A DNA stretch of 64,000 bases. Origin: Fibrobacter sp. UWB2. Lineage in GTDB: Bacteria > Fibrobacterota > Fibrobacteria > Fibrobacterales > Fibrobacteraceae. The stretch is taken from assembly GCF_002210425.1 (NCBI RefSeq), contig NZ_MWQK01000001.1:434001-498000 (forward strand), given 5' to 3'. The position numbers and the translations under genes were made by a program. Position 1 is the stretch's first letter. Every line of letters begins with the position of its first letter. The notes beneath the pieces were generated by a model. It worked only from the letters and a program-made list of their open reading frames with translations, did no database searches and was not told the DNA's origin. Positions 1,382 to 33,413 of this stretch are shown one piece after another.

Positions 1382-2230
1382 CTAGATTTCCATGAAGGCT
1401 TTGAGGTCGCCCATGCGGCGCTTGGCGTATTCAAGCCCCATGTTGTAGGATTCGTCGAGCTCGTTACGATCCGTTGCAAAGAGGTCGCAGACTTCTTTTT
1501 CCGGGCGGAAAATCAAGAGCTTGCCTGATTTTTCGAGCTTTTCCATCTCAGCAAACATCTTCTCGTAACGCTTGTAACGCAACATGAGCGCACGGAAGAA
1601 ATCCGGATACTTGCGCTTGAACATCGGATTCAAAATCACGCGATACTTGCGGAAGTCCGTCACGATTTCGCCAGGGTAATGCGTCGAAACTACAACGACC
1701 TTGTCGCAGCCCTTCTCGAATGCACGCTGGTACGGAATCGGAGAGGTCACGCAGCCGTCTGCATAATGCTTGCCGTCAATCTGCGCAATCGGGAATAACA
1801 TCGGGAGGGCACTGCTCGCGTTCACGATATCGAGCAAACGCTTTTCGCTCATGTATTCCTGGAAGAATTCCGAGCGACCCGTTTCGAGGCACGTCAGGCC
1901 AAATTCGCATTCCACGCCCGAACCAAAGAACAGGTGGAAATCGAACGGCATATCGCCATACGCAGCATTGTAATGGAGCGCATAGCATTCCTTCTGGATT
2001 CCATCAAAAATGCGGTGAGCCTTATCCCTACCCTGCTGGATTTTGGTCGGCTGGATAATGTAGCGGAAACGGCCGCGCTGGCGCGTGACAAAGTTCATGG
2101 CCGCATGGCAACCGGCGCTTACGCCCGAAATATACGGGAAATAAACACCTTCATCGAGCCAAGCGTCCAATACGCCTGCCGAGAAAATCGTCTGACGCGA
2201 ACCGCCTTCTAGAGCCAAGCCAATCTTCAT
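1382..2230 (-). CDS. Patatin-like phospholipase
   Basis: Predicted cytoplasmic serine lipase or acyl hydrolase of the patatin family (282 aa). The oxyanion-hole glycines (LALEGGSRQ), the nucleophile elbow GVSAG (Ser38) and the catalytic dyad Asp in ADGC (Asp158) are all present, so the Ser-Asp dyad is intact. No signal peptide is seen. It is the last gene of a two-gene unit: its ATG overlaps the stop codon of the upstream plsC-type gene by one base (TAATG), which suggests translational coupling and a shared role in phospholipid turnover or acyl editing. The substrate cannot be told from sequence. Confidence 0.88.
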   Translation of the reverse strand: MKIGLALEGGSRQTIFSAGVLDAWLDEGVYFPYISGVSAGCHAAMNFVTRQRGRFRYIIQPTKIQQGRDKAHRIFDGIQKECYALHYNAAYGDMPFDFHLFFGSGVECEFGLTCLETGRSEFFQEYMSEKRLLDIVNASSALPMLFPIAQIDGKHYADGCVTSPIPYQRAFEKGCDKVVVVSTHYPGEIVTDFRKYRVILNPMFKRKYPDFFRALMLRYKRYEKMFAEMEKLEKSGKLLIFRPEKEVCDLFATDRNELDESYNMGLEYAKRRMGDLKAFMEI

Positions 2231-2940
2231 TACTTGCTCTCCTCAGGCAAAACTTCAGCAGGAGTTTCGGCGGCAACAGGGAGAATAGCCCCCGTCTGGC
2301 CCAAAGCGCGCTGCTTGAGTTCCCAGACCTTCTGGCGGAAATATTCGCTGCGTTCTGCAAGATGCTTGGAAGACGGAATTCCCTTGACGCGTTCAATCTT
2401 TTCGGGTTCGTCCACCACAATCTGCGTGCGGTGACCCATCTTGTAAATGCCGTCAATGCCGACAGAAAGGACCGGATAACCCGTACTGCGAGCGAGGAAT
2501 GCAAAACCCGTCTTGAACTCGTTCAAGAGGCCATCGTAACGGCACTTGCCTTCCGGGAAAATAATGACGGAATTGCCCTTTTCAAGTTCCTTCTTGGCAA
2601 GGAGCGCCCATTCGGTATCGAGGTTAAAGCGGTCGCAAGGAATCACGTTCTTGAAACGCTTCAAGGCCCAGCTGAAATGCGGGTCTTCGACCTGGTCCTT
2701 AGCCACAACGATACTGCGCTTATGGAAGAACAGAGACTGCACCATCAAGGGATCGAGCATGCTCGTGTGGTTAGCAATAATAATCATCGGTTCCTTAAGG
2801 TCAGTCGACTTGACAGACCCTAAGAACGTCATCTTGGGACGATAAACGACTAACAAGTAAGTGCGCACCCCGTAAACAACGAGGAAGAGCACAAACTTCC
2901 AGAACAAACCAGCAATTATATTTTTCGCTTTCTCAATCAT
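2230..2940 (-). CDS. 1-acyl-sn-glycerol-3-phosphate acyltransferase (PlsC family)
   Basis: Transfers an acyl chain to lysophosphatidic acid or a similar acceptor at the inner membrane. The 236-residue product has an N-terminal hydrophobic helix (about 10-33), the NHX4D catalytic motif as NHTSMLD (His58, Asp63) and the FPEG acceptor motif (128-131). The frame is open 26 codons further upstream, but that extension is translated from an intergenic hairpin repeat, so the ATG at 2938-2940 was chosen. The C-terminal 20 residues are Ala/Pro/Glu-rich and probably disordered. Its position behind FabZ, FabG, the KS fusion and ACP suggests it may use acyl chains made by that set. Specific substrate is unknown. 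Confidence 0.9.
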   Translation of the reverse strand: MIEKAKNIIAGLFWKFVLFLVVYGVRTYLLVVYRPKMTFLGSVKSTDLKEPMIIIANHTSMLDPLMVQSLFFHKRSIVVAKDQVEDPHFSWALKRFKNVIPCDRFNLDTEWALLAKKELEKGNSVIIFPEGKCRYDGLLNEFKTGFAFLARSTGYPVLSVGIDGIYKMGHRTQIVVDEPEKIERVKGIPSSKHLAERSEYFRQKVWELKQRALGQTGAILPVAAETPAEVLPEESK

Positions 2941-2969
2941 CCGCAAACGTATTTTTCTATTTGGAGATT

Positions 2970-3050
2970 CCGTCCCGGAACAAGTCCGGGATGACAGGCC
3001 GGAATGACAGATCGTCATAGTTCAGCACACTAGGCCGGAATGACACAAAG
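2970..3050. repeat. Intergenic hairpin repeat plus partial copies
   Basis: A complete element (GTCCCGG...CCGGGATGACA, about 2972-2996) is followed by two short GGCCGGAATGACA fragments (2997-3009 and 3034-3046). They separate plsC from fabZ and create the spurious N-terminal extension of the PlsC frame. Confidence 0.6.
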
Positions 3051-3060
3051 GACAATTAAT

Positions 3061-3504
3061 TTATTTGCCCAAGGATTCCTTGGGGATGCTCGTAAACGTC
3101 AACGAGCCCTTGGCGTGGACATTGCCGTTCACCTTGACAACGCAGTCAAAGCCGACGATGACTCCACCACCCTTCGTCTTGTTGACGGAGATTTCGAGCT
3201 GGTCGCCCGGAATCACAGGCTTCACGAACTTGAAACCGTCAATCTTCAAAAGAACGTACAAGTTCTTTTCGAGGTCTTCGGCCGGCTTCTCGATAACGAG
3301 CGAGCAGAGCTGGGCGCAGGCTTCGCAAATGAGGACGCCCGGCATAATCGGGGTGCCCGGGAAGTGGCCCATGAAGTACGGTTCGTTTACAGAGACATTC
3401 TTGATGCCCGTTGCAGATTCGTTCGGAACGAGTTCCGTGACCTTTTCGATCATCTGGAACGGCGGACGCTGGGCAATCTTTTCGCTGATCTGGTAAATGT
3501 TCAT
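3061..3504 (-). CDS. fabZ: 3-hydroxyacyl-ACP dehydratase (FabZ-type hotdog fold)
   Basis: Dehydrates 3-hydroxyacyl-ACP to trans-2-enoyl-ACP in the elongation cycle. The 147-residue product has the diagnostic block GHFPGTPIMPGVLICEACAQ with catalytic His47 and Glu61 both present, and normal FabZ length. A GTG one codon upstream (3505-3507) is possible, but the ATG at 3502-3504 is preferred; it overlaps the TGA of the upstream fabG by one base, so the two are probably translationally coupled. Whether it serves bulk fatty acid synthesis or a dedicated pathway with the adjacent KS fusion is not decidable from the sequence. Confidence 0.92.
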   Translation of the reverse strand: MNIYQISEKIAQRPPFQMIEKVTELVPNESATGIKNVSVNEPYFMGHFPGTPIMPGVLICEACAQLCSLVIEKPAEDLEKNLYVLLKIDGFKFVKPVIPGDQLEISVNKTKGGGVIVGFDCVVKVNGNVHAKGSLTFTSIPKESLGK

Positions 3505-4235
3505 CACAGGGAAAGGCCTCCATCCAAAACGATGACCTGACCCGTCACATAGGCGAACTGGTCAGAAGCGAGAGCAGAAACGACGTTTGCGACTTCGTCA
3601 GCAGAGGCAAAGCGCTTGAGCGGCACCTTTTCGAGGTAGCCCTTGCGGGTTTCTTCCGGGATGGCTTCGATCATTTCTGTAGCGACAAAGCCCGGAGCGA
3701 CTGCGTTCACGCGGATGCCGTAACCGCCAAGTTCCTTGGCGAGCGTCTGCGTAAAGGAGTTCACGGCGCCCTTCGTAGCGCTGTAAACAGCCTGGCCTGC
3801 GAGAGCGAACTTGGAAGAAACAGAAGACATGTTGATGATAACGCCAGACTTCTGCTTGTACATCTTGACAGCGACCTGCTGTGCGCAGTAGAAGTAGCCC
3901 TTCACGTTCAAGTCAAAGCACTTGTCGAGCGTATCCGGGTTCATCATCAAAAGATATTCGTCACGGACGATACCGGCGTTGTTCACGAGCACGTCGATAC
4001 GGCCATAAGCCTTGAACACATCGCGCACCATCTGCTTGACTTCGGCAAGAACAGCGACGTTAGCCTTGTAGACCATGCCATCGCCACCTTCAGCCTTAAT
4101 TTGTTCAAGCGTCTGGAGTGCAGCTTCATCAGAGCTGGAGTAGTTTACGACGACTGTGTAGCCGTCACGAGCGAGGCGGAGGGCACAAGCCTTGCCAATC
4201 CCCTTAGAAGAACCAGTAACGATTGCAACTTTCAT
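3504..4235 (-). CDS. fabG: 3-oxoacyl-ACP reductase (FabG, SDR family)
   Basis: NADPH-dependent reduction of 3-oxoacyl-ACP. It is a 243-residue classical short-chain dehydrogenase with the nucleotide-binding TGSSKGIG at 7-14, NNAG at 85-88, and the catalytic set Ser138, Tyr151 and Lys155 (YSATK). The C-terminus VIVLDGGLSL is typical of FabG. It follows the KS fusion gene by 21 bp and overlaps fabZ, so it is part of the ACP-KS-fabG-fabZ operon. Family assignment is firm; the acyl specificity is not known. Confidence 0.93.
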   Translation of the reverse strand: MKVAIVTGSSKGIGKACALRLARDGYTVVVNYSSSDEAALQTLEQIKAEGGDGMVYKANVAVLAEVKQMVRDVFKAYGRIDVLVNNAGIVRDEYLLMMNPDTLDKCFDLNVKGYFYCAQQVAVKMYKQKSGVIINMSSVSSKFALAGQAVYSATKGAVNSFTQTLAKELGGYGIRVNAVAPGFVATEMIEAIPEETRKGYLEKVPLKRFASADEVANVVSALASDQFAYVTGQVIVLDGGLSL

Positions 4236-4256: not shown

Positions 4257-6650
4257 TTATTTACCGAGCACGACGGCGCTGTAAGAACCGCCCGTAGCAA
4301 AGGACGTGACCAAGATTTTCTTGAAGCCCGCAGTTGCGACCTTCTTCTTAGAAACTTCGCCATTTGCGATAAAGTAGGCGTTTTCTTCAGCAAGTTCACC
4401 ACCGAGCATGAGAGCGGCTTCGGCAGCGGCGAGTGTCGCAGAAGCGGCACGGCCTTCGCCCACGCGTTCCTTCACCTGGAAGAGCGGGAGGCTTGCAAGC
4501 TTGTCGCCAAACACGCGTGCGTATGCACCCTTTTCGATATCGTCAATCTTCTTGAAGCCGTTTGCAAAACCGCAGACAGCGTCAATTTCGTCAATGCTCA
4601 CGCCTGCATCGTTGAGAGCATCCTTGATAGCAAGGTCAAGAGCTTCGTCAGAACCGGAGATGTGGCCGAACTTCACGTTCTTGCGGCCGTTGCCGTAACC
4701 GAGGGCGTAGCAGTAAACCTTTGCACCACGGGACTTGGCGTAGTCTTCGGTTTCCATGATGATAGAAACAGAGCCATCGCCCACCACAAAGCCATTGGAG
4801 TTGGAATACGGTTCCACCACCTTGTCGGCGGCGACGTTCATCTTCTGGCAGAGTTCGGTGATGATCGGGAGGTTTTCGTCCGTACCCGTAGCCATCATAG
4901 CCTCTTCCTGACCGTCGTGGATGACGTTCATGGAGTAGCCGATGCTATCGAGACCGGAGAGCGGACCCGTCGTGATGGTGACGCCGTAGCCCTTAATTCC
5001 AGAGAGAATCGAGAGGTAACCACCGGCGGCATTATAAACTGTGTGAGGGAACTTGAAGGCGCTACCGCCAGCATTACCAGCTTCGGCAATGAGTTCCTCG
5101 AAATCGTAAGTGGCACCGAGGCCGCCTTCGCTAGTACCCACGATGATACCAATCTGCTTGGCGTTGTCTTCAGTGACCGTAAAGTTTGCATCCTTGAGGG
5201 CGCGCATGCCGGACACGGTCTGGAGCTGGCCCAGATTGTCGAGCTTGCGGTAGAAGGCCATCTTGATGCCGAGTTCCTTGTAGTCGTCGTTCGTAACGGT
5301 CGAGCAAATGGAAGCGGATTCCGGGAGCTTACCGTTCTTGACGGCGTCAAGGTAAATTTCCTTGCTGTTACCGATCGGGCTTACAATGCCAATACCTGTC
5401 ACAGCAATCTTCTTATCCTTAGCGACCTGGCTCTGCACATCGCCCGGCTTCTTGCTGAACACGATACTTGCGTTCGTGCCGCCGAAAGCGACGTTGTTGC
5501 TCATGACGCATTCGAGTTCCTTGGCACGCGGGGTGTTCTGCACGTAGTCCATCGAGCCGACCTTAGCCTTGAGGGCTTCGGAATCTTCGGCAGTGTAATG
5601 GAGTGTCGGGAGCACAGTGTTCGTCGTGAGAGCCTTGATGCTGAACACGGCTTCGATTGCACCGGCGGCGCCGAGGCAGTGGCCCGTCATTACCTTGGTC
5701 GAACTGACACTCAAGGTCGGATTTTCTTCGTCGAAGAACTTGTGGAATGCATTGATTTCTGCATTGTCGTTCTTGCCCGTACCCGTACCATGAGCGTTCA
5801 GATAACCGATGTCAGACTTCTTGATGCCAGAATTCTTGACAGCGCGGTCCATCGCTTCGAGGAGGCAGACGCCATCTTCGCGAGGAGCCGTAATGTGGTG
5901 AGCGTCGCTTGTGACACCTGCGCCGAGAACTTCGCAATAACGTTTGGCGTTACGCTTTTCGGCATGTTCCAGAGATTCGACAATCACGATGCCAGCGCCT
6001 TCACCGAGGGTGATGCCGTTGCAGTGGTTGAACGGAGAGCAACCGTTTTCGTCCAAGGCATGGAGAGATAGGAAGCCAGAGTACGGAACAGAAGCAAAGG
6101 AGTCGGAGCCACCGGCGATCACGACATCAGCCTTGCCTGCGCGGATAAGGTCGCAAGCAAGAGCAATGGAAATCGTACCGGCAGCGCAAGCGTTGCCCAC
6201 GTTTGTGACAATGCCGCCCGCATGGCAAGCTTCGGCCACCTGGGAGGCGATTGCGGCAATGGGCATCTTCGGAATTTCGTTGACGTTCTTACCGTGGCGG
6301 TGGTACTGTTCAATGCTGAGGACTCCACCCACGCAGCTACCGATGATGACGCTTACGCGGCTGCTATCGGCAAAGTCACCGAGACCAGCATCATTCAGGG
6401 CTTCTTTCATAGCCTTGATGCAGAGCTTGGAGGCGCGGTCCTTTTCGTCCGGGCATTCGATATCGTCCAGCGTATCACAGTTCACTTCGGCAGCGAGGTC
6501 TGCATAGCAGTTCTTGGTATCGAGCGAAGTAGTCTTGTGAATACCGGAGACGGAATTCAGGGCGTTTTTCCAGGTTTCTTCAACATTGTTGCCTACGGCG
6601 CAGATAACGCCAAGGCCAGAAACAACACAGCGACGATTATTAGAAGTCAT
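4257..6650 (-). CDS. Fused ketosynthase and chain-length-factor-like protein (KS-CLF in one ORF)
   Basis: A 797-residue protein made of two complete thiolase-fold ketosynthase units. The first (about 1-400) is catalytically intact: Cys155 in GNACAAGT, His287 in AHGTGT, His324 in GHCLGAAGA, and the NNVAFGGTNAS end motif. A short Lys/Gln-rich linker leads to a second unit (about 413-797) beginning IAVTGIGIVSPIG. There the Cys position reads TTGPLSG (Pro), the HGTGT position reads GFANGF and the GH position reads GEGRAAS, so all three catalytic residues are missing, as in chain-length factors. The ATG at 6648-6650 has GGA just upstream and is preferred over an ATG five codons earlier. This arrangement resembles type II PKS KS-alpha/KS-beta or the KS-CLF pair of PUFA synthases, but as a stand-alone protein beside ACP, FabG and FabZ. 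Product unknown. Confidence 0.9.
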   Translation of the reverse strand: MTSNNRRCVVSGLGVICAVGNNVEETWKNALNSVSGIHKTTSLDTKNCYADLAAEVNCDTLDDIECPDEKDRASKLCIKAMKEALNDAGLGDFADSSRVSVIIGSCVGGVLSIEQYHRHGKNVNEIPKMPIAAIASQVAEACHAGGIVTNVGNACAAGTISIALACDLIRAGKADVVIAGGSDSFASVPYSGFLSLHALDENGCSPFNHCNGITLGEGAGIVIVESLEHAEKRNAKRYCEVLGAGVTSDAHHITAPREDGVCLLEAMDRAVKNSGIKKSDIGYLNAHGTGTGKNDNAEINAFHKFFDEENPTLSVSSTKVMTGHCLGAAGAIEAVFSIKALTTNTVLPTLHYTAEDSEALKAKVGSMDYVQNTPRAKELECVMSNNVAFGGTNASIVFSKKPGDVQSQVAKDKKIAVTGIGIVSPIGNSKEIYLDAVKNGKLPESASICSTVTNDDYKELGIKMAFYRKLDNLGQLQTVSGMRALKDANFTVTEDNAKQIGIIVGTSEGGLGATYDFEELIAEAGNAGGSAFKFPHTVYNAAGGYLSILSGIKGYGVTITTGPLSGLDSIGYSMNVIHDGQEEAMMATGTDENLPIITELCQKMNVAADKVVEPYSNSNGFVVGDGSVSIIMETEDYAKSRGAKVYCYALGYGNGRKNVKFGHISGSDEALDLAIKDALNDAGVSIDEIDAVCGFANGFKKIDDIEKGAYARVFGDKLASLPLFQVKERVGEGRAASATLAAAEAALMLGGELAEENAYFIANGEVSKKKVATAGFKKILVTSFATGGSYSAVVLGK

Positions 6651-6686: not shown

Positions 6687-6932
6687 TTAAGCCTTGTTCT
6701 TTTCGATGAAAGCGGCGATGGTGTCGATGCTCTGGAAGTTTTCCTTAGCAACGCCAGTCATAGAAACGCCGAAGTTGTCATCGACGAAGGAGATGATTTC
6801 AAGGGAGTCCACGGAGTCAAGACCGATTTCTTCGCCGAAAAGCGGAGTATCGTAATTCAGGACATCGCCATCTACGCCGAGATCGGACATAAAGAATGCC
6901 TTGAGTTTGCTCTTGATTTCTTCGTTTGCCAT
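6687..6932 (-). CDS. acpP: Acyl carrier protein
   Basis: A small acidic carrier protein of 81 residues that holds growing acyl chains on a phosphopantetheine arm. The attachment site is Ser40 in GLDSVDSLE, the usual DS(L/V)D context on helix II. It is the first gene of the minus-strand operon and lies 36 bp before the KS fusion start. The sequence is somewhat unlike housekeeping AcpP (for example SVDSLE in place of SLDTVE), so it could be dedicated to the KS-CLF protein. The symbol is given for the family only. Confidence 0.92.
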   Translation of the reverse strand: MANEEIKSKLKAFFMSDLGVDGDVLNYDTPLFGEEIGLDSVDSLEIISFVDDNFGVSMTGVAKENFQSIDTIAAFIEKNKA

Positions 6933-7173: not shown

Positions 7174-8022
7174 ATGATTTCATACGTATTTCCCGGTCAG
7201 GGTTCTCAGTTCCCAGGAATGGGCAAAGATTTATTCGAATCGAACGCCGACGTAAAGTCGATGTTCCTCAAGGCAAACGAAATTCTCGGCTTCAACATCA
7301 CTGACGTGATGTTCAATGGCACCGCAGAAGACCTCAAGCAGACGAAAGTCACGCAGCCGGCAGTGTTCCTGCTCTCTGTTGCTATGGCAAAGGTCCAGGG
7401 TGGTAAGCCGGATATGGCCGCAGGTCACTCGCTCGGCGAATTCTCTGCACTCACGGCCACGGGCGCCATCACTTTTGAAGCAGGCCTCAAGCTCGTTGCA
7501 AAGCGTGCCGAAGCCATGCAGAAGGCTTGCGAACTCCGCCCGGGCACGATGGCCGCTGTTCTCGGCGGTTCTGATGAACTCGTCGAAGAAGCTTGCGCAC
7601 AGGTCAAAGACGCAGCCGTTGTTCCGGCAAACTTCAACAGCCCGGGACAGGTCGTGATTTCTGGCGAAAAGGCCGGCATCGACGCTGTTGCAGCATACCT
7701 CACCGGCAAGGTGAAGCGCGTCGTTCCGCTGCAGGTCGGTGGTGCATTCCACTCCCCGCTCATGGAAAGCGCCCGTGCAGAACTTGCAAAGGCTATCGAA
7801 GAAACTGAATTTTCGACTCCGGTCTGCCCAGTCTACCAGAACGTAGACGCCAAGCCGCACACAGACCCGAACGAAATTAAGGCAAACCTTCTCACTCAGC
7901 TCACCTCCCCCGTCCGTTGGACACAGACGGTCAAGAACATGATTGCAGACGGTGCCACGGAATTTAAGGAACTTGGCCCCGGCGAAGTCCTTACCAACCT
8001 TATCAAGCGCATTCAGAAGTAA
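7174..8022 (+). CDS. fabD: Malonyl-CoA:ACP transacylase
   Basis: Loads malonyl units from CoA onto ACP. The 282-residue product has GQGSQFPGMG at 8-17, the nucleophile elbow GHSLGE with Ser86, and a GAFHSPLM block supplying the catalytic His; length is slightly below the usual 300-310 residues. It is transcribed divergently from ACP and the KS fusion and followed after 21 bp by a carboxyltransferase that could make its malonyl or methylmalonyl substrate. Whether it is the cell's only FabD cannot be judged here. Confidence 0.94.
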   Translation: MISYVFPGQGSQFPGMGKDLFESNADVKSMFLKANEILGFNITDVMFNGTAEDLKQTKVTQPAVFLLSVAMAKVQGGKPDMAAGHSLGEFSALTATGAITFEAGLKLVAKRAEAMQKACELRPGTMAAVLGGSDELVEEACAQVKDAAVVPANFNSPGQVVISGEKAGIDAVAAYLTGKVKRVVPLQVGGAFHSPLMESARAELAKAIEETEFSTPVCPVYQNVDAKPHTDPNEIKANLLTQLTSPVRWTQTVKNMIADGATEFKELGPGEVLTNLIKRIQK

Positions 8023-8043: not shown

Positions 8044-9585
8044 ATGTGGGATAAATCGTATTTAGAAAAGTTGAGCGAACGCAACGCCAAGGCACAGGCC
8101 GGTGGTGGCGCCGCTCGTGTAGAAAAGCAGCATTCCCAGGGCAAGCTCACCGCTCGCGAACGCCTTGAGATCCTTTTTGACAAGGGAACATTCAAGGAAA
8201 TCGGTGCCATGCGCCTTTCCCAGAGCATCGAGCTCCCGGAATCCAAGCGCATTTACGGTGACGGTGTCGTGACGGGTTACGGCAAGATCAATGGCCGCCC
8301 GGTTTACGCCTGCTCCCAGGACTTCACGGTGAGCGGCGGTTCTCTCGGTTCCGCACACGCGAAGAAGATTTGCCACGTGATGGACCTCGCCCTTGATTCC
8401 ATGGTGCCGTTTATCAGCATCAACGATGGCGGTGGTGCCCGTATCGAAGAAGGCGTTAGCTCCCTCGACGGTTACAGTGGCATTTTTGCCCGTAACACTT
8501 GGGCAAGCGGCGTGATTCCGCAGATTTCCGTGATTCTCGGACCGTGCGCAGGTGGTGCTTGCTACTCCCCGGCTATTACAGACTTTATCTTCATGACCGA
8601 AAAGACGAGCCAGATGTTCATCACGGGCCCGGCCGTCGTGAAGGCTGTGACTGCTGAAGTCGTGACCCCGGACCAGCTCGGTGGCGCAGGCGTTCATTCT
8701 TCCAAGTCCGGCGTTGCACACTTCGTGTACAAGGACGACAAGGAATGCCTCGAAGGCGTGCGTAACTTGCTCAAGTACCTCCCGCAGAGCAACACAGACA
8801 AGTCTGTCGCTCAGGCCGGTACGATCGTGGACAAGTCCGCCGACATCGAAGAAATCATTCCGGACAACTTCAAGCGCGCTTACGATGTCCGTGACGTGCT
8901 CAACTGCTTTGCCGATAAGGATTCCTTCCTCGAAATCCAGCCGGAATTTGCAAAAAACGTTGTCATCGGCTTTATCCGCCTCGACGGTAACGTGATTGGC
9001 GTTGTCGCTAACCAGCCGAAGTACCTCGCCGGTTCTTTGGACGTGGACGCTAGCGATAAGGCTGCACGCTTTGTCCGCTTCTGCGATAGCTTCAACATTC
9101 CTATCCTTACGCTCGAAGACGTTCCGGGTTACATGCCGGGTACGAAGCAGGAACACAACGGCATTATCCGCCACGGTGCAAAGCTCCTCTTTGCATACGC
9201 CGAAGCAACAGTGCCGCGCGTGACGCTCATCCTCCGCAAGGCTTACGGTGGCGCATACATCGCCATGAACAGCAAGAACCTCGGTGCAGACTGCGTGTTC
9301 GCTCTCCCGATCGCTCAGATCGCCGTTATGGGTGCTGAAGGCGCTGTCGACATTCTCCGCAGAAAGGAAATCGCCGCTTCTGCTGAACCGGCCAAGCTCC
9401 GCGAACAGTACATCAACGAATACGAAGAAAAGTACTTGAACCCGTACATTGCCGCTGGCAACGGATTCATTGACGAAGTCATTGAACCGAAGAGCGTTCG
9501 TGACCGCCTTGTTTCTGCGTTCGAAAACTTGAAGAACAAGAAGAAGGCTGTGCTTTGGAAGAAGCACGGAAATATTCCGCTGTAA
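8044..9585 (+). CDS. Biotin-dependent acyl-CoA carboxyltransferase subunit (PCC-beta/MmdA family)
   Basis: A 513-residue carboxyltransferase that moves CO2 between carboxybiotin and an acyl-CoA, or acts as methylmalonyl-CoA decarboxylase subunit. It shows the two crotonase-like halves of the family: N-terminal half with HSQGKLTARERLEILFD, GGGARIEEGV and GPCAGGACYSP, and C-terminal half with LEDVPGYMPGTKQEHNGIIRHGAK, RKAYGGAYIAMNSK and GAEGAVDILRRKE. No biotin-carrier subunit lies nearby. The neighbourhood (FabD, ACP, KS) makes an acetyl- or propionyl-CoA carboxylase role plausible, while MmdA of the succinate-propionate pathway is the alternative. A terminator follows. Confidence 0.88.
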   Translation: MWDKSYLEKLSERNAKAQAGGGAARVEKQHSQGKLTARERLEILFDKGTFKEIGAMRLSQSIELPESKRIYGDGVVTGYGKINGRPVYACSQDFTVSGGSLGSAHAKKICHVMDLALDSMVPFISINDGGGARIEEGVSSLDGYSGIFARNTWASGVIPQISVILGPCAGGACYSPAITDFIFMTEKTSQMFITGPAVVKAVTAEVVTPDQLGGAGVHSSKSGVAHFVYKDDKECLEGVRNLLKYLPQSNTDKSVAQAGTIVDKSADIEEIIPDNFKRAYDVRDVLNCFADKDSFLEIQPEFAKNVVIGFIRLDGNVIGVVANQPKYLAGSLDVDASDKAARFVRFCDSFNIPILTLEDVPGYMPGTKQEHNGIIRHGAKLLFAYAEATVPRVTLILRKAYGGAYIAMNSKNLGADCVFALPIAQIAVMGAEGAVDILRRKEIAASAEPAKLREQYINEYEEKYLNPYIAAGNGFIDEVIEPKSVRDRLVSAFENLKNKKKAVLWKKHGNIPL

Positions 9586-32169: not shown

Positions 32170-33413
32170 TAATTCCTCGCGAAAATGATAACTCCATTTT
32201 GGCCTCCGAAGCCAAAGCCGTTGCTCATAGCGTAGTCAATCTTCTGGTTGACAGCACCATTTGCGCAGACATCGAGATGAATTTCCGGATCCTGTTCGAA
32301 CACGTTGAGTGTACCATGAATCTTCTGGTTCATCACAGACATGATGGTCACGACGGATTCGAGAGCACCTGCAGCACCCAGGCAGTGGCCGATCATAGAC
32401 TTGGACGAATTGACCTTAAGGTTTTCGAGAGCCGATGCAGAGGACTGCTTGAAGAGCGTTTCGATGGCAGAGCATTCTGCAATGTCACCGAGCGGTGTGG
32501 ATGTACCGTGAGTGTTAATATAGCTAATATCCTTAGCTTCGATGCCAGCTTCCTTCATGGCGTTGGCCATTGCGAGCATCACACCCTTGCCATCCGGACG
32601 CGGAGCGGAGATGTGGTGAGCGTCAGAGCTTGCACCGACACCAGCGATACGGGCGAGAATATTTGCACCACGAGCCTTAGCGTGAGATTCGCTTTCGAGC
32701 ACGAGGACTGCAGCGCCTTCACCGATCACGAAGCCATCGCGATCCTTATCGAACGGGCGGGAAGCCTGTTCCGGAGCGTCATTGCGCTTGCTGACGGCCT
32801 TCATGCTGGTAAAGCCAGCAAGGCTGAGCGGGTTCACCGTTTCGTCGGCACCACCAGCGAGCATCACATCGCAGCGGCCGAGACGAATCATGTCATAGGC
32901 ATTGGCGATGGAGTGGTTGGAAGTTGCGCAAGCGGAAGTGACCGTGTAGGACGGGCCCATCCAGCCAGTCTTGTTGCAAACTTCACCTGCCGGCATATTC
33001 ACGATGGCCATCGGAATATAGAACGGGGAAACGCGGGACGGACCACGATTGCTGAGAGCCACAGCGGCATCATAGCAATACTGCAAACCACCGATACTGC
33101 TACCAATGATAGCGCCGCAACGTTCCGGATTTTCGTTTTCCGGAGAGATGCCAGCCATCTTCAAGGCCTGGAATGCCGAGTAAACGGCATACTGGATGCA
33201 GCGGGAGAACCTAGACTGGTCTCTGGTGCTGTAGATTTCCGAAGCGTCGAACTCACGGATTTCGCTAGCCATGCGAGATGTGTAAGCCGAAGCGTCGAAA
33301 CGCTGAATGGGAGCAATGCCAGACTTGCCCTGGAGCAAGTTCTGCCACAATAATTCGGGGGAGTTTCCGAGAGAGGAAACGCAGCCCATACCTGTAATAA
33401 CAACATTTTCCAT
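32169..33413 (-). CDS. fabF: 3-oxoacyl-ACP synthase II (FabF-type)
   Basis: Elongates acyl-ACP by condensation with malonyl-ACP. The 414-residue protein has all catalytic residues: Cys162 in VTSACATS, His in NTHGTSTPLGD, His in GHCLGAAGA, and the end GFGFGGQNG. It begins MENVVITGMGCVSSLGNS at the ATG 33411-33413; the frame upstream is AT-rich and not coding. As a normal single KS, it probably serves primary fatty acid synthesis, in contrast to the KS-CLF fusion at 4257-6650. It is translationally coupled to the DUF2279-like gene. Confidence 0.93.
   Translation of the reverse strand: MENVVITGMGCVSSLGNSPELLWQNLLQGKSGIAPIQRFDASAYTSRMASEIREFDASEIYSTRDQSRFSRCIQYAVYSAFQALKMAGISPENENPERCGAIIGSSIGGLQYCYDAAVALSNRGPSRVSPFYIPMAIVNMPAGEVCNKTGWMGPSYTVTSACATSNHSIANAYDMIRLGRCDVMLAGGADETVNPLSLAGFTSMKAVSKRNDAPEQASRPFDKDRDGFVIGEGAAVLVLESESHAKARGANILARIAGVGASSDAHHISAPRPDGKGVMLAMANAMKEAGIEAKDISYINTHGTSTPLGDIAECSAIETLFKQSSASALENLKVNSSKSMIGHCLGAAGALESVVTIMSVMNQKIHGTLNVFEQDPEIHLDVCANGAVNQKIDYAMSNGFGFGGQNGVIIFARN

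Follow-up and report, generated by a model that had tools for sequence, protein, structure and literature searches.

The window analysed here is a stretch of 64,000 nucleotides from Fibrobacter sp. UWB2 (G000:C1:434001-498000; G and L numbers are our handles for genomes and loci, respectively). It belongs to a 3.53-Mb genome in 15 contigs, whose nearest named relatives are Fibrobacter metagenome-assembled genomes (MAGs) and Fibrobacter intestinalis ATCC 43854. The window was found to possess a minus-strand operon encoding, in order, an acyl carrier protein (ACP), a fusion of a ketosynthase (KS) with a chain length factor (CLF), FabG, FabZ, PlsC and a patatin, with spacings between successive genes of 36, 21, -4, 42 and -1 bp. 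This report concerns the KS-CLF fusion and the putative acyl synthase encoded around it. The open reading frame (ORF) of the fusion and its parts are as follows:

4257..6650, minus strand: KS-CLF fusion ORF, 797 amino acids plus stop
5442..6650, minus strand: KS half, residues 1-403, catalytically intact by sequence, grouping with ketosynthases in the tree
6186-6188 (C155), 5790-5792 (H287), 5694-5696 (K319) and 5679-5681 (H324), minus strand: residue codons of the KS half
4257..5420, minus strand: CLF half, residues 411-797, without catalytic residues, grouping with CLFs in the tree
4962-4964 (P563), 4566-4568 (F695) and 4455-4457 (E732), minus strand: codons of the CLF half at the catalytic positions

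PF00109 and PF02801 each match this ORF twice, in agreement with the initial annotation, which had reported two KS domains in 797 residues at these coordinates and left the strand unstated; the ORF lies on the minus strand, the plus strand of 4257-6650 being interrupted by a stop. The catalytic triad was also read correctly there. It is kept in the first domain (Cys155 in NACAAG, His287 in NAHGTGT and His324 in TGHCLG, with Lys319 also present) and replaced in the second by Pro563 in TTGPLSG, Phe695 in GFANGF and Glu732 in GEGRAAS. When 35 fusions were aligned, drawn from Fibrobacter, Treponema, Clostridia and Acholeplasmatales and with identities down to 54%, C155, H287, K319 and H324 proved identical throughout. 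The CLF position equivalent to the Cys (563) is occupied by A, P, S, T, M or V, that of the first His (695) by F in 34 fusions and M in one, and that of the second His (732) by Glu in all 35; Cys or His is never regained in this half, which is 48-76% identical in relatives outside Fibrobacter. Judged from this alignment, the pattern of active and dead residues is neither due to chance nor confined to a lone pseudogene. Classical KS-beta proteins carry a signature Gln at the Cys position itself. This residue was not found there in any of the 35 aligned fusions, 22 of which have a Gln one residue further on, and the CLF half is therefore not filed as a classical KS-beta of type II polyketide synthases (PKSs).

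The NCBIfam family nearest to the whole protein is FabF, at 474 bits compared with the TIGR03150 cut-off of 494, and no CLF family was among the best 25, so that library names alone miss its KS-CLF nature. In a pairwise search, FabF chains likewise gave the CLF half higher scores than did actinorhodin KS-beta. A tree of 60 domains (LG+C20+F+G4/PMSF) was built from 26 CLFs (17 from the fusion family, with Priestia, L062-L066 and two Streptomyces KS-beta) and 34 KSs, including FabF, FabB, aryl polyene enzymes and Streptomyces KS-alpha, the Streptomyces references coming from two plasmids. A single branch splits all 26 CLFs from all 34 KSs, with moderate support (92/75) and among long branches. 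The KS halves of the fusion family are monophyletic (100/100), as are its CLF halves (100/100). In both halves Fibrobacter is nested in the Treponema group, which is itself nested in Bacillota-type sequences, and this placement suggests transfer between gut phyla; deeper placement is unsure because of the long CLF branches.

An AlphaFold2 model based on the 35-fusion alignment reached a mean pLDDT of 88.3 and a pTM of 0.92. Its top Foldseek match in the PDB is the PfaC KS-CLF (6riw; E-value 6.4e-51, 926 aligned columns), the only two-domain match among the 50 listed; the other 49 align over a single KS domain. The fusion halves are predicted to pack like the PfaC KS-CLF didomain. The assignment of the second half as CLF/KS-beta rather than FabF, as proposed in the initial annotation, is supported by its position in the tree, with CLFs and away from FabF, and is joined by the match of the predicted fold to 6riw.

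The genes surrounding the fusion, together with a further synthase in the window, are as follows:

6687..6932, minus strand: dedicated ACP, 81 amino acids, with a GLDSVDS phosphopantetheine site (PF00550), adjoining the KS-CLF gene in nearly every related locus of sufficient contig reach
3504..4235, minus strand: FabG-type 3-oxoacyl-ACP reductase, YSATK at 151
3061..3507, minus strand: FabZ-type 3-hydroxyacyl-ACP dehydratase, GTG start, 4-bp overlap with FabG
2230..3018, minus strand: PlsC-family acyltransferase (PF01553), HTSMLD and FPEG
1382..2230, minus strand: patatin-like phospholipase with DUF6363, GVSAG, kept with PlsC in Fibrobacter and many Treponema
7174..8022, plus strand: FabD malonyl-CoA:ACP transacylase, divergent, TIGR00128 above cut-off, outside the mobile block of Fibrobacter
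8044..9585, plus strand: carboxyltransferase subunit, MmdA/PccB family, divergent
32175..33404, minus strand: stand-alone FabF-type synthase, separate from the fusion system

Function motifs were found in the ACP, FabG, FabZ, PlsC and patatin; the true start of PlsC probably lies near 2940, its orthologues being shorter. FabD and the carboxyltransferase, a possible source of malonyl-CoA, run opposite to the operon from an intergenic region of 241 bp. With ACP, KS, ketoreductase, dehydratase and malonyl-CoA:ACP transacylase all as discrete proteins, the gene set is, in these components, that of a type II fatty acid synthase (FAS).

Within Fibrobacter the operon is an accessory trait. Orthologues of the fusion occur in 23 of 37 genomes of the genus, and the fusion-negative ones include 99%-complete genomes (G008, G009, G024 and G035). 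F. intestinalis ATCC 43854 (L085) carries the fusion. The ACP, KS-CLF, FabG, FabZ, PlsC and patatin genes mostly remain linked, and the number of genomic contexts is at least two. In context A, that of the window, the operon lies with the divergent FabD and carboxyltransferase genes between GdhA and IMPase, and in context B genomes neither of these two genes is beside it. As the block relocates without either, FabD and the carboxyltransferase were ruled out as obligate partners in Fibrobacter. All the neighbours named in the initial annotation (ACP, FabG, FabZ, FabD, carboxyltransferase and PlsC) are present, the two divergent genes included; its description as a dedicated system is apt for the operon, which is confirmed and relocates as one block, and too wide in taking in FabD and the carboxyltransferase, which in Fibrobacter stand outside that block. 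At L053, L056 and L059 the Fibrobacter operon continues into genes for a flavoprotein, MlaE, an ABC ATPase, MlaD and an ABC auxiliary lipoprotein, and these Mla/ABC genes suggest a link to outer-membrane lipid traffic in some members of the genus. A protein of ~355 amino acids with the motif QRYSVVPILGYTEETEFQ is encoded upstream of relocated Fibrobacter operons (L060:12353-13426, L053:11995-13065 and L056:8280-9326); Pfam gave no match for the copy at L060.

The genome of strain UWB2 also encodes two single FabF-type enzymes, an aryl polyene-type pair and FabV. Since FabF-type synthases lie elsewhere in the genome, the fusion is not its only condensing enzyme, and the idea that the fusion is the sole FAS everywhere was discarded on account of the two FabF enzymes and FabV. 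The initial annotation had made its proposal depend on the fusion not being the only condensing enzyme for bulk fatty acids, which holds for this genome and, judged by the fusion being the only ketosynthase, does not hold for some Bacillota. The aryl polyene-type cluster (G000:C1:201000-216000, L014) contains genes for an aromatic amino acid lyase, a thioesterase-like protein and a large membrane protein as well as two KS genes. Elsewhere (G000:C1:404000-412500, L155), two KASIII-like genes and three short-chain dehydrogenase genes lie in a sugar/glycosyltransferase cluster, an atypical context for FabH.

Of 114 relatives found in one scan of a species-genome collection, 80 were kept. These comprise 37 from Fibrobacter, 19 from Treponema/Spirochaete and 24 from Bacillota and Acholeplasmatales/Anaeroplasma, with rumen, gut or faeces as the source of most. 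The core of ACP, KS-CLF, FabG and FabZ genes recurs in four bacterial groups, in nearly all relatives with enough sequence; at L116 and L121 FabG and FabZ are not beside the fusion. Partners differ between groups. PlsC and patatin accompany the core in Fibrobacter and many Treponema loci, and many clostridial operons add FabD, AccD, AccA, a flavoprotein and PlsX. The Acholeplasmatales operon reads ACP, KS-CLF, FabG, FabZ, flavoprotein, ACP, AccB, AccC, AccD, AccA and FabD. In Lachnospira eligens ATCC 27750 the fusion operon, with PlsX, is on a 627-kb plasmid, where the annotations include "beta-ketoacyl-[ACP] synthase family protein" and "flavodoxin family protein"; the accessions are WP_041688922 for its KS-CLF, WP_012740555 for its ACP and WP_012740548 for its flavoprotein. 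Response regulator/two-component-like genes (cluster c9) occur just upstream of the ACP gene at L131, L134, L141 and L146 (Clostridia). Here and in the related loci only small discrete genes adjoin the fusion, with no PfaA/B/C/D multidomain genes, and no aromatic-starter lyase or export genes of the aryl polyene type were seen beside it. No published account of the fused family was found in a search outside which most subscription journals fall. The words fused, fusion and Fibrobacter do not occur in a catalogue of type II PKSs (PMC10132072), and Fibrobacter, Eubacterium and Treponema are not named by Shulse and Allen (2011; PMC3098273).

In 16 of 32 non-Fibrobacter genomes, no ORF other than the fusion matches PF00109. 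A survey of one family (36 genomes) gave 11 with the fusion only, three with FabF only, two with both and 20 with neither; in a second family (51 genomes) the corresponding counts were 13, 13, 0 and 25 (Fisher p 0.023, ignoring phylogenetic relatedness). KASIII (PF08541) was not detected in 14 of the 16 sole-fusion genomes, the exceptions being G075, which has FabH and FabK, and G068, whose KASIII-like protein was rejected as a FabH of fatty acid synthesis, as its gene adjoins a thiolase gene distant from the FAS genes. Some known FASs also lack KASIII. Among 27-28 genomes tested, genuine FabK (TIGR03151) was confined to Clostridia also having FabF and to G075, the only sole-fusion genome with it, and FabV to strain UWB2 and the tested Treponema. 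With E. coli FabI as query, the best match in sole-fusion genomes was the FabG of the operon; a recurrent second match was rejected as FabI, as by eye it looked like a KduD-type dehydrogenase, with a KduI-like neighbour at L148 and L149. Fourteen Bacillota-type sole-fusion genomes are consequently without detected FabH, FabK, FabV or FabI. Taken as an FAS, the fusion system would be a second one beside the ordinary FabF-based FAS in Fibrobacter, Treponema and L. eligens, and in some Anaeroplasma/Acholeplasmatales and Clostridia no other FAS was detected.

A flavodoxin-fold protein of ~250 amino acids is encoded in nearly every Bacillota-type operon of sufficient contig extent and in most Treponema loci, and it tracks the fusion even when unlinked. 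Context A Fibrobacter encode it away from the operon; in the present genome it lies outside the window, hence invisible to the initial annotation:

G000:C5:97716-98462 (L164), outside the window: flavoprotein of this genome

In Fibrobacter the flavoprotein is present in all 23 fusion-positive genomes and in 2 of the 14 fusion-negative ones. These two are 74-81% complete, and none of the eight fusion-negative genomes of at least 85% completeness has it. In the Anaeroplasma-type family it was found in 13/13 fusion-positive and 0/12 fusion-negative genomes (0/3 with FabF only, 0/9 without KS). It matches PF02525/PF03358 and was modelled (pLDDT 92) with a flavodoxin fold of the FMN-reductase type, its cofactor being predicted only; azoreductases and quinone reductases are its fold neighbours. 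Four Cys are invariant, spaced CX2CX2CX7C in 22 of 23 rows and with X8 in one, a compact four-Cys motif close to the cluster motif of iron-sulfur flavoproteins (ISF), given as compact CX2CX2CX(5-7)C (PMC3164229). The best match in a profile search of PDB sequences is flavone reductase (7d38, E-value 5.7e-11), reported to represent a novel ene-reductase class (PMC7862272). Among known classes of enoyl-ACP reductase, FabI, FabK and FabV were not found in sole-fusion genomes except for FabK in G075, so that none dedicated to the fusion was seen, and the flavoprotein is the only operon-linked candidate for enoyl reduction. From its co-occurrence and its similarity to 7d38, it is regarded as a candidate enoyl-ACP reductase.

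The operon probably encodes a small type II fatty-acyl synthase that is complete in itself, feeds phospholipid acyltransferases and is accessory in Fibrobacter. In such a system the KS half would condense malonyl-ACP and the CLF half would shape the acyl tunnel and set chain length. The fusion would prime itself by decarboxylation of malonyl-ACP, a step proposed because KASIII is missing from most genomes without another synthase. FabG and FabZ would process the beta-carbon, the flavodoxin-fold protein with its ISF-type Cys motif would reduce the enoyl group, and PlsC (Fibrobacter, Treponema) or PlsX (Clostridia) would channel the finished chain into glycerophospholipid, while the patatin would remodel lipids. 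That the acyl chains are meant for membrane lipids is suggested by PlsC, PlsX and Acc as partners. Of the products named in the initial annotation (an unusual acyl chain, a pigment or a membrane lipid), the last is favoured by these same partners; the unusual chain and the pigment were not shown.

Several points weigh against this reading. The product and activity of the operon are inferred from sequence. In the families with sole-fusion genomes, 20/36 and 25/51 genomes have no ketosynthase at all, so that a sole fusion is suggestive, not proof, of bulk fatty acid synthesis; fatty acid scavenging is probably common in both families, and cells with a sole fusion may live on scavenged fatty acids, the fusion serving another purpose. 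The Fisher tests take no account of phylogenetic relatedness, and since most genomes are MAGs, of unreported completeness where reached through a locus, the absences are somewhat uncertain. The match of the flavoprotein to flavone reductase spans only ~80 residues, and that enzyme does not use NAD(P)H directly (PMC7862272).

A broader proposal is put forward tentatively, namely that these operons form a distinct FAS class in which a self-priming KS-CLF takes the place of FabH and FabF, and an Fe-S/FMN flavodoxin-fold protein acts as enoyl-ACP reductase instead of FabI/FabK/FabV. Such a class would have spread horizontally among gut anaerobes, serving as the only FAS in some lineages and as a second, plasmid-borne or relocated FAS for membrane lipids in others. 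To our knowledge, no fatty-acyl role has been described for flavone reductase or iron-sulfur flavoproteins.

The alternative that survives best, although we consider it unlikely, is that the operon makes a conjugated polyene or a partly reduced specialised acyl chain, attached to lipid by PlsC, with the flavoprotein as a tailoring or redox partner. The core of KS-CLF, ketoreductase, dehydratase and ACP would suit such a product, as would the lack of FabI, FabK and FabV among the operon partners seen, the normal FAS already owned by Fibrobacter, Treponema and L. eligens-type genomes, and the closest fold, PfaC, which comes from polyunsaturated fatty acid (PUFA) synthases. However, no aromatic-starter or export genes of the aryl polyene type adjoin the fusion, the lyase-bearing cluster of this genome being separate; Bacillota operons with Acc, FabD and PlsX have the usual partners of membrane-lipid synthesis, and in some genomes the fusion is the only KS. 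It is improbable that the system instead extends chains made by FabF/FabV to very long or polyunsaturated acids. PfaC KS-CLF, the sole two-domain structural match among the 50 listed, does carry out the final elongation in PUFA synthesis (PMC12895367), but no Pfa multidomain genes lie nearby, the dehydratase is of the FabZ type, and sole-fusion genomes have no other KS for the earlier chain. That the second half is a decayed FabF duplicate in an otherwise ordinary FabF is very improbable, for despite its higher pairwise scores with FabF chains than with actinorhodin KS-beta, it is conserved outside Fibrobacter to the extent given above, has an invariant Glu732, groups with other CLFs and forms part of a high-confidence didomain model.

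Pairs of KS and CLF have been described from polyketide and PUFA synthesis. The present one occurs in an apparent primary FAS whose hosts are common in gut and rumen, among them F. intestinalis and L. eligens, a human commensal in culture. New in this analysis are the fusion as sole ketosynthase in at least 14 Bacillota-type genomes without detected FabH, FabK, FabI or FabV, and the four-Cys protein that accompanies it. If the membrane-lipid synthase reading is true, the worlds of FAS and PKS would be linked, a new class of enoyl reductase would be suggested, and fatty acid synthesis may be present in genomes that lack it by annotation. It would also change which FAS inhibitors could act, some of these bacteria being without a FabI, FabK or FabH target.

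Among known systems, the PfaC KS-CLF (6riw) is the best structural match and likewise has an active KS followed by an inactive CLF in one chain. However, PfaC belongs to a multidomain synthase that includes dehydratase domains, whereas the protein from the window (18% identical over the alignment) is a didomain alone whose partners are a free ACP, FabG and FabZ. Type II PKSs such as those for actinorhodin and other Streptomyces aromatic polyketides share the active KS, the inactive CLF and the free ACP, and in the tree their CLFs lie on the side of the fusion CLFs. Their KS-alpha and KS-beta are separate genes, and their Gln at the Cys position is absent from the fusion family; the window operon has no cyclase or aromatase and has FabZ and PlsC (PlsX in relatives). 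Aryl polyene and ishigamide systems also have KS-CLF, ketoreductase and dehydratase functions on discrete proteins, but the fusion operon has no adjoining aromatic amino acid lyase or large export protein.

The compact two-domain fusion had been presented as unlike known arrangements, and in this it is not unique, for comparable fusions exist on a plasmid of Priestia megaterium and in other members of the phylum. A second compact family (L183:3762-6191 on P. megaterium plasmid pBMG6, and L065/L066 in Fibrobacterota) is likewise accompanied by ACP, FabG, FabD and FabZ. It differs in having a GcvT-like gene (aminomethyltransferase folate-binding) and in both halves lying outside the fusion family of the window in the tree; no flavoprotein is annotated beside the Priestia KS-CLF. 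At L064:7589-13710 (same phylum, G056), a 1263-amino acid protein with a B12-binding/radical SAM N-terminus and a KS-CLF is followed directly by a 777-amino acid KS-CLF, with FabG and FabD downstream. Neighbouring unfused KS and CLF genes, only distantly related to the fusion, occur in deep Fibrobacterota (L062:2745-5183 and L063:7698-10997, the latter with FabG).

In Acholeplasmatales loci the gene set is similar to that of FabH/FabK/FabF-type fatty acid synthase operons, and its order partly agrees. In these loci, however, the KS-CLF stands in place of FabF, the flavodoxin-fold protein apparently in place of FabK, and FabH is absent. That protein shares its flavodoxin fold and compact four-Cys motif with flavone reductase (7d38), an ene-reductase, and with the iron-sulfur flavoproteins.

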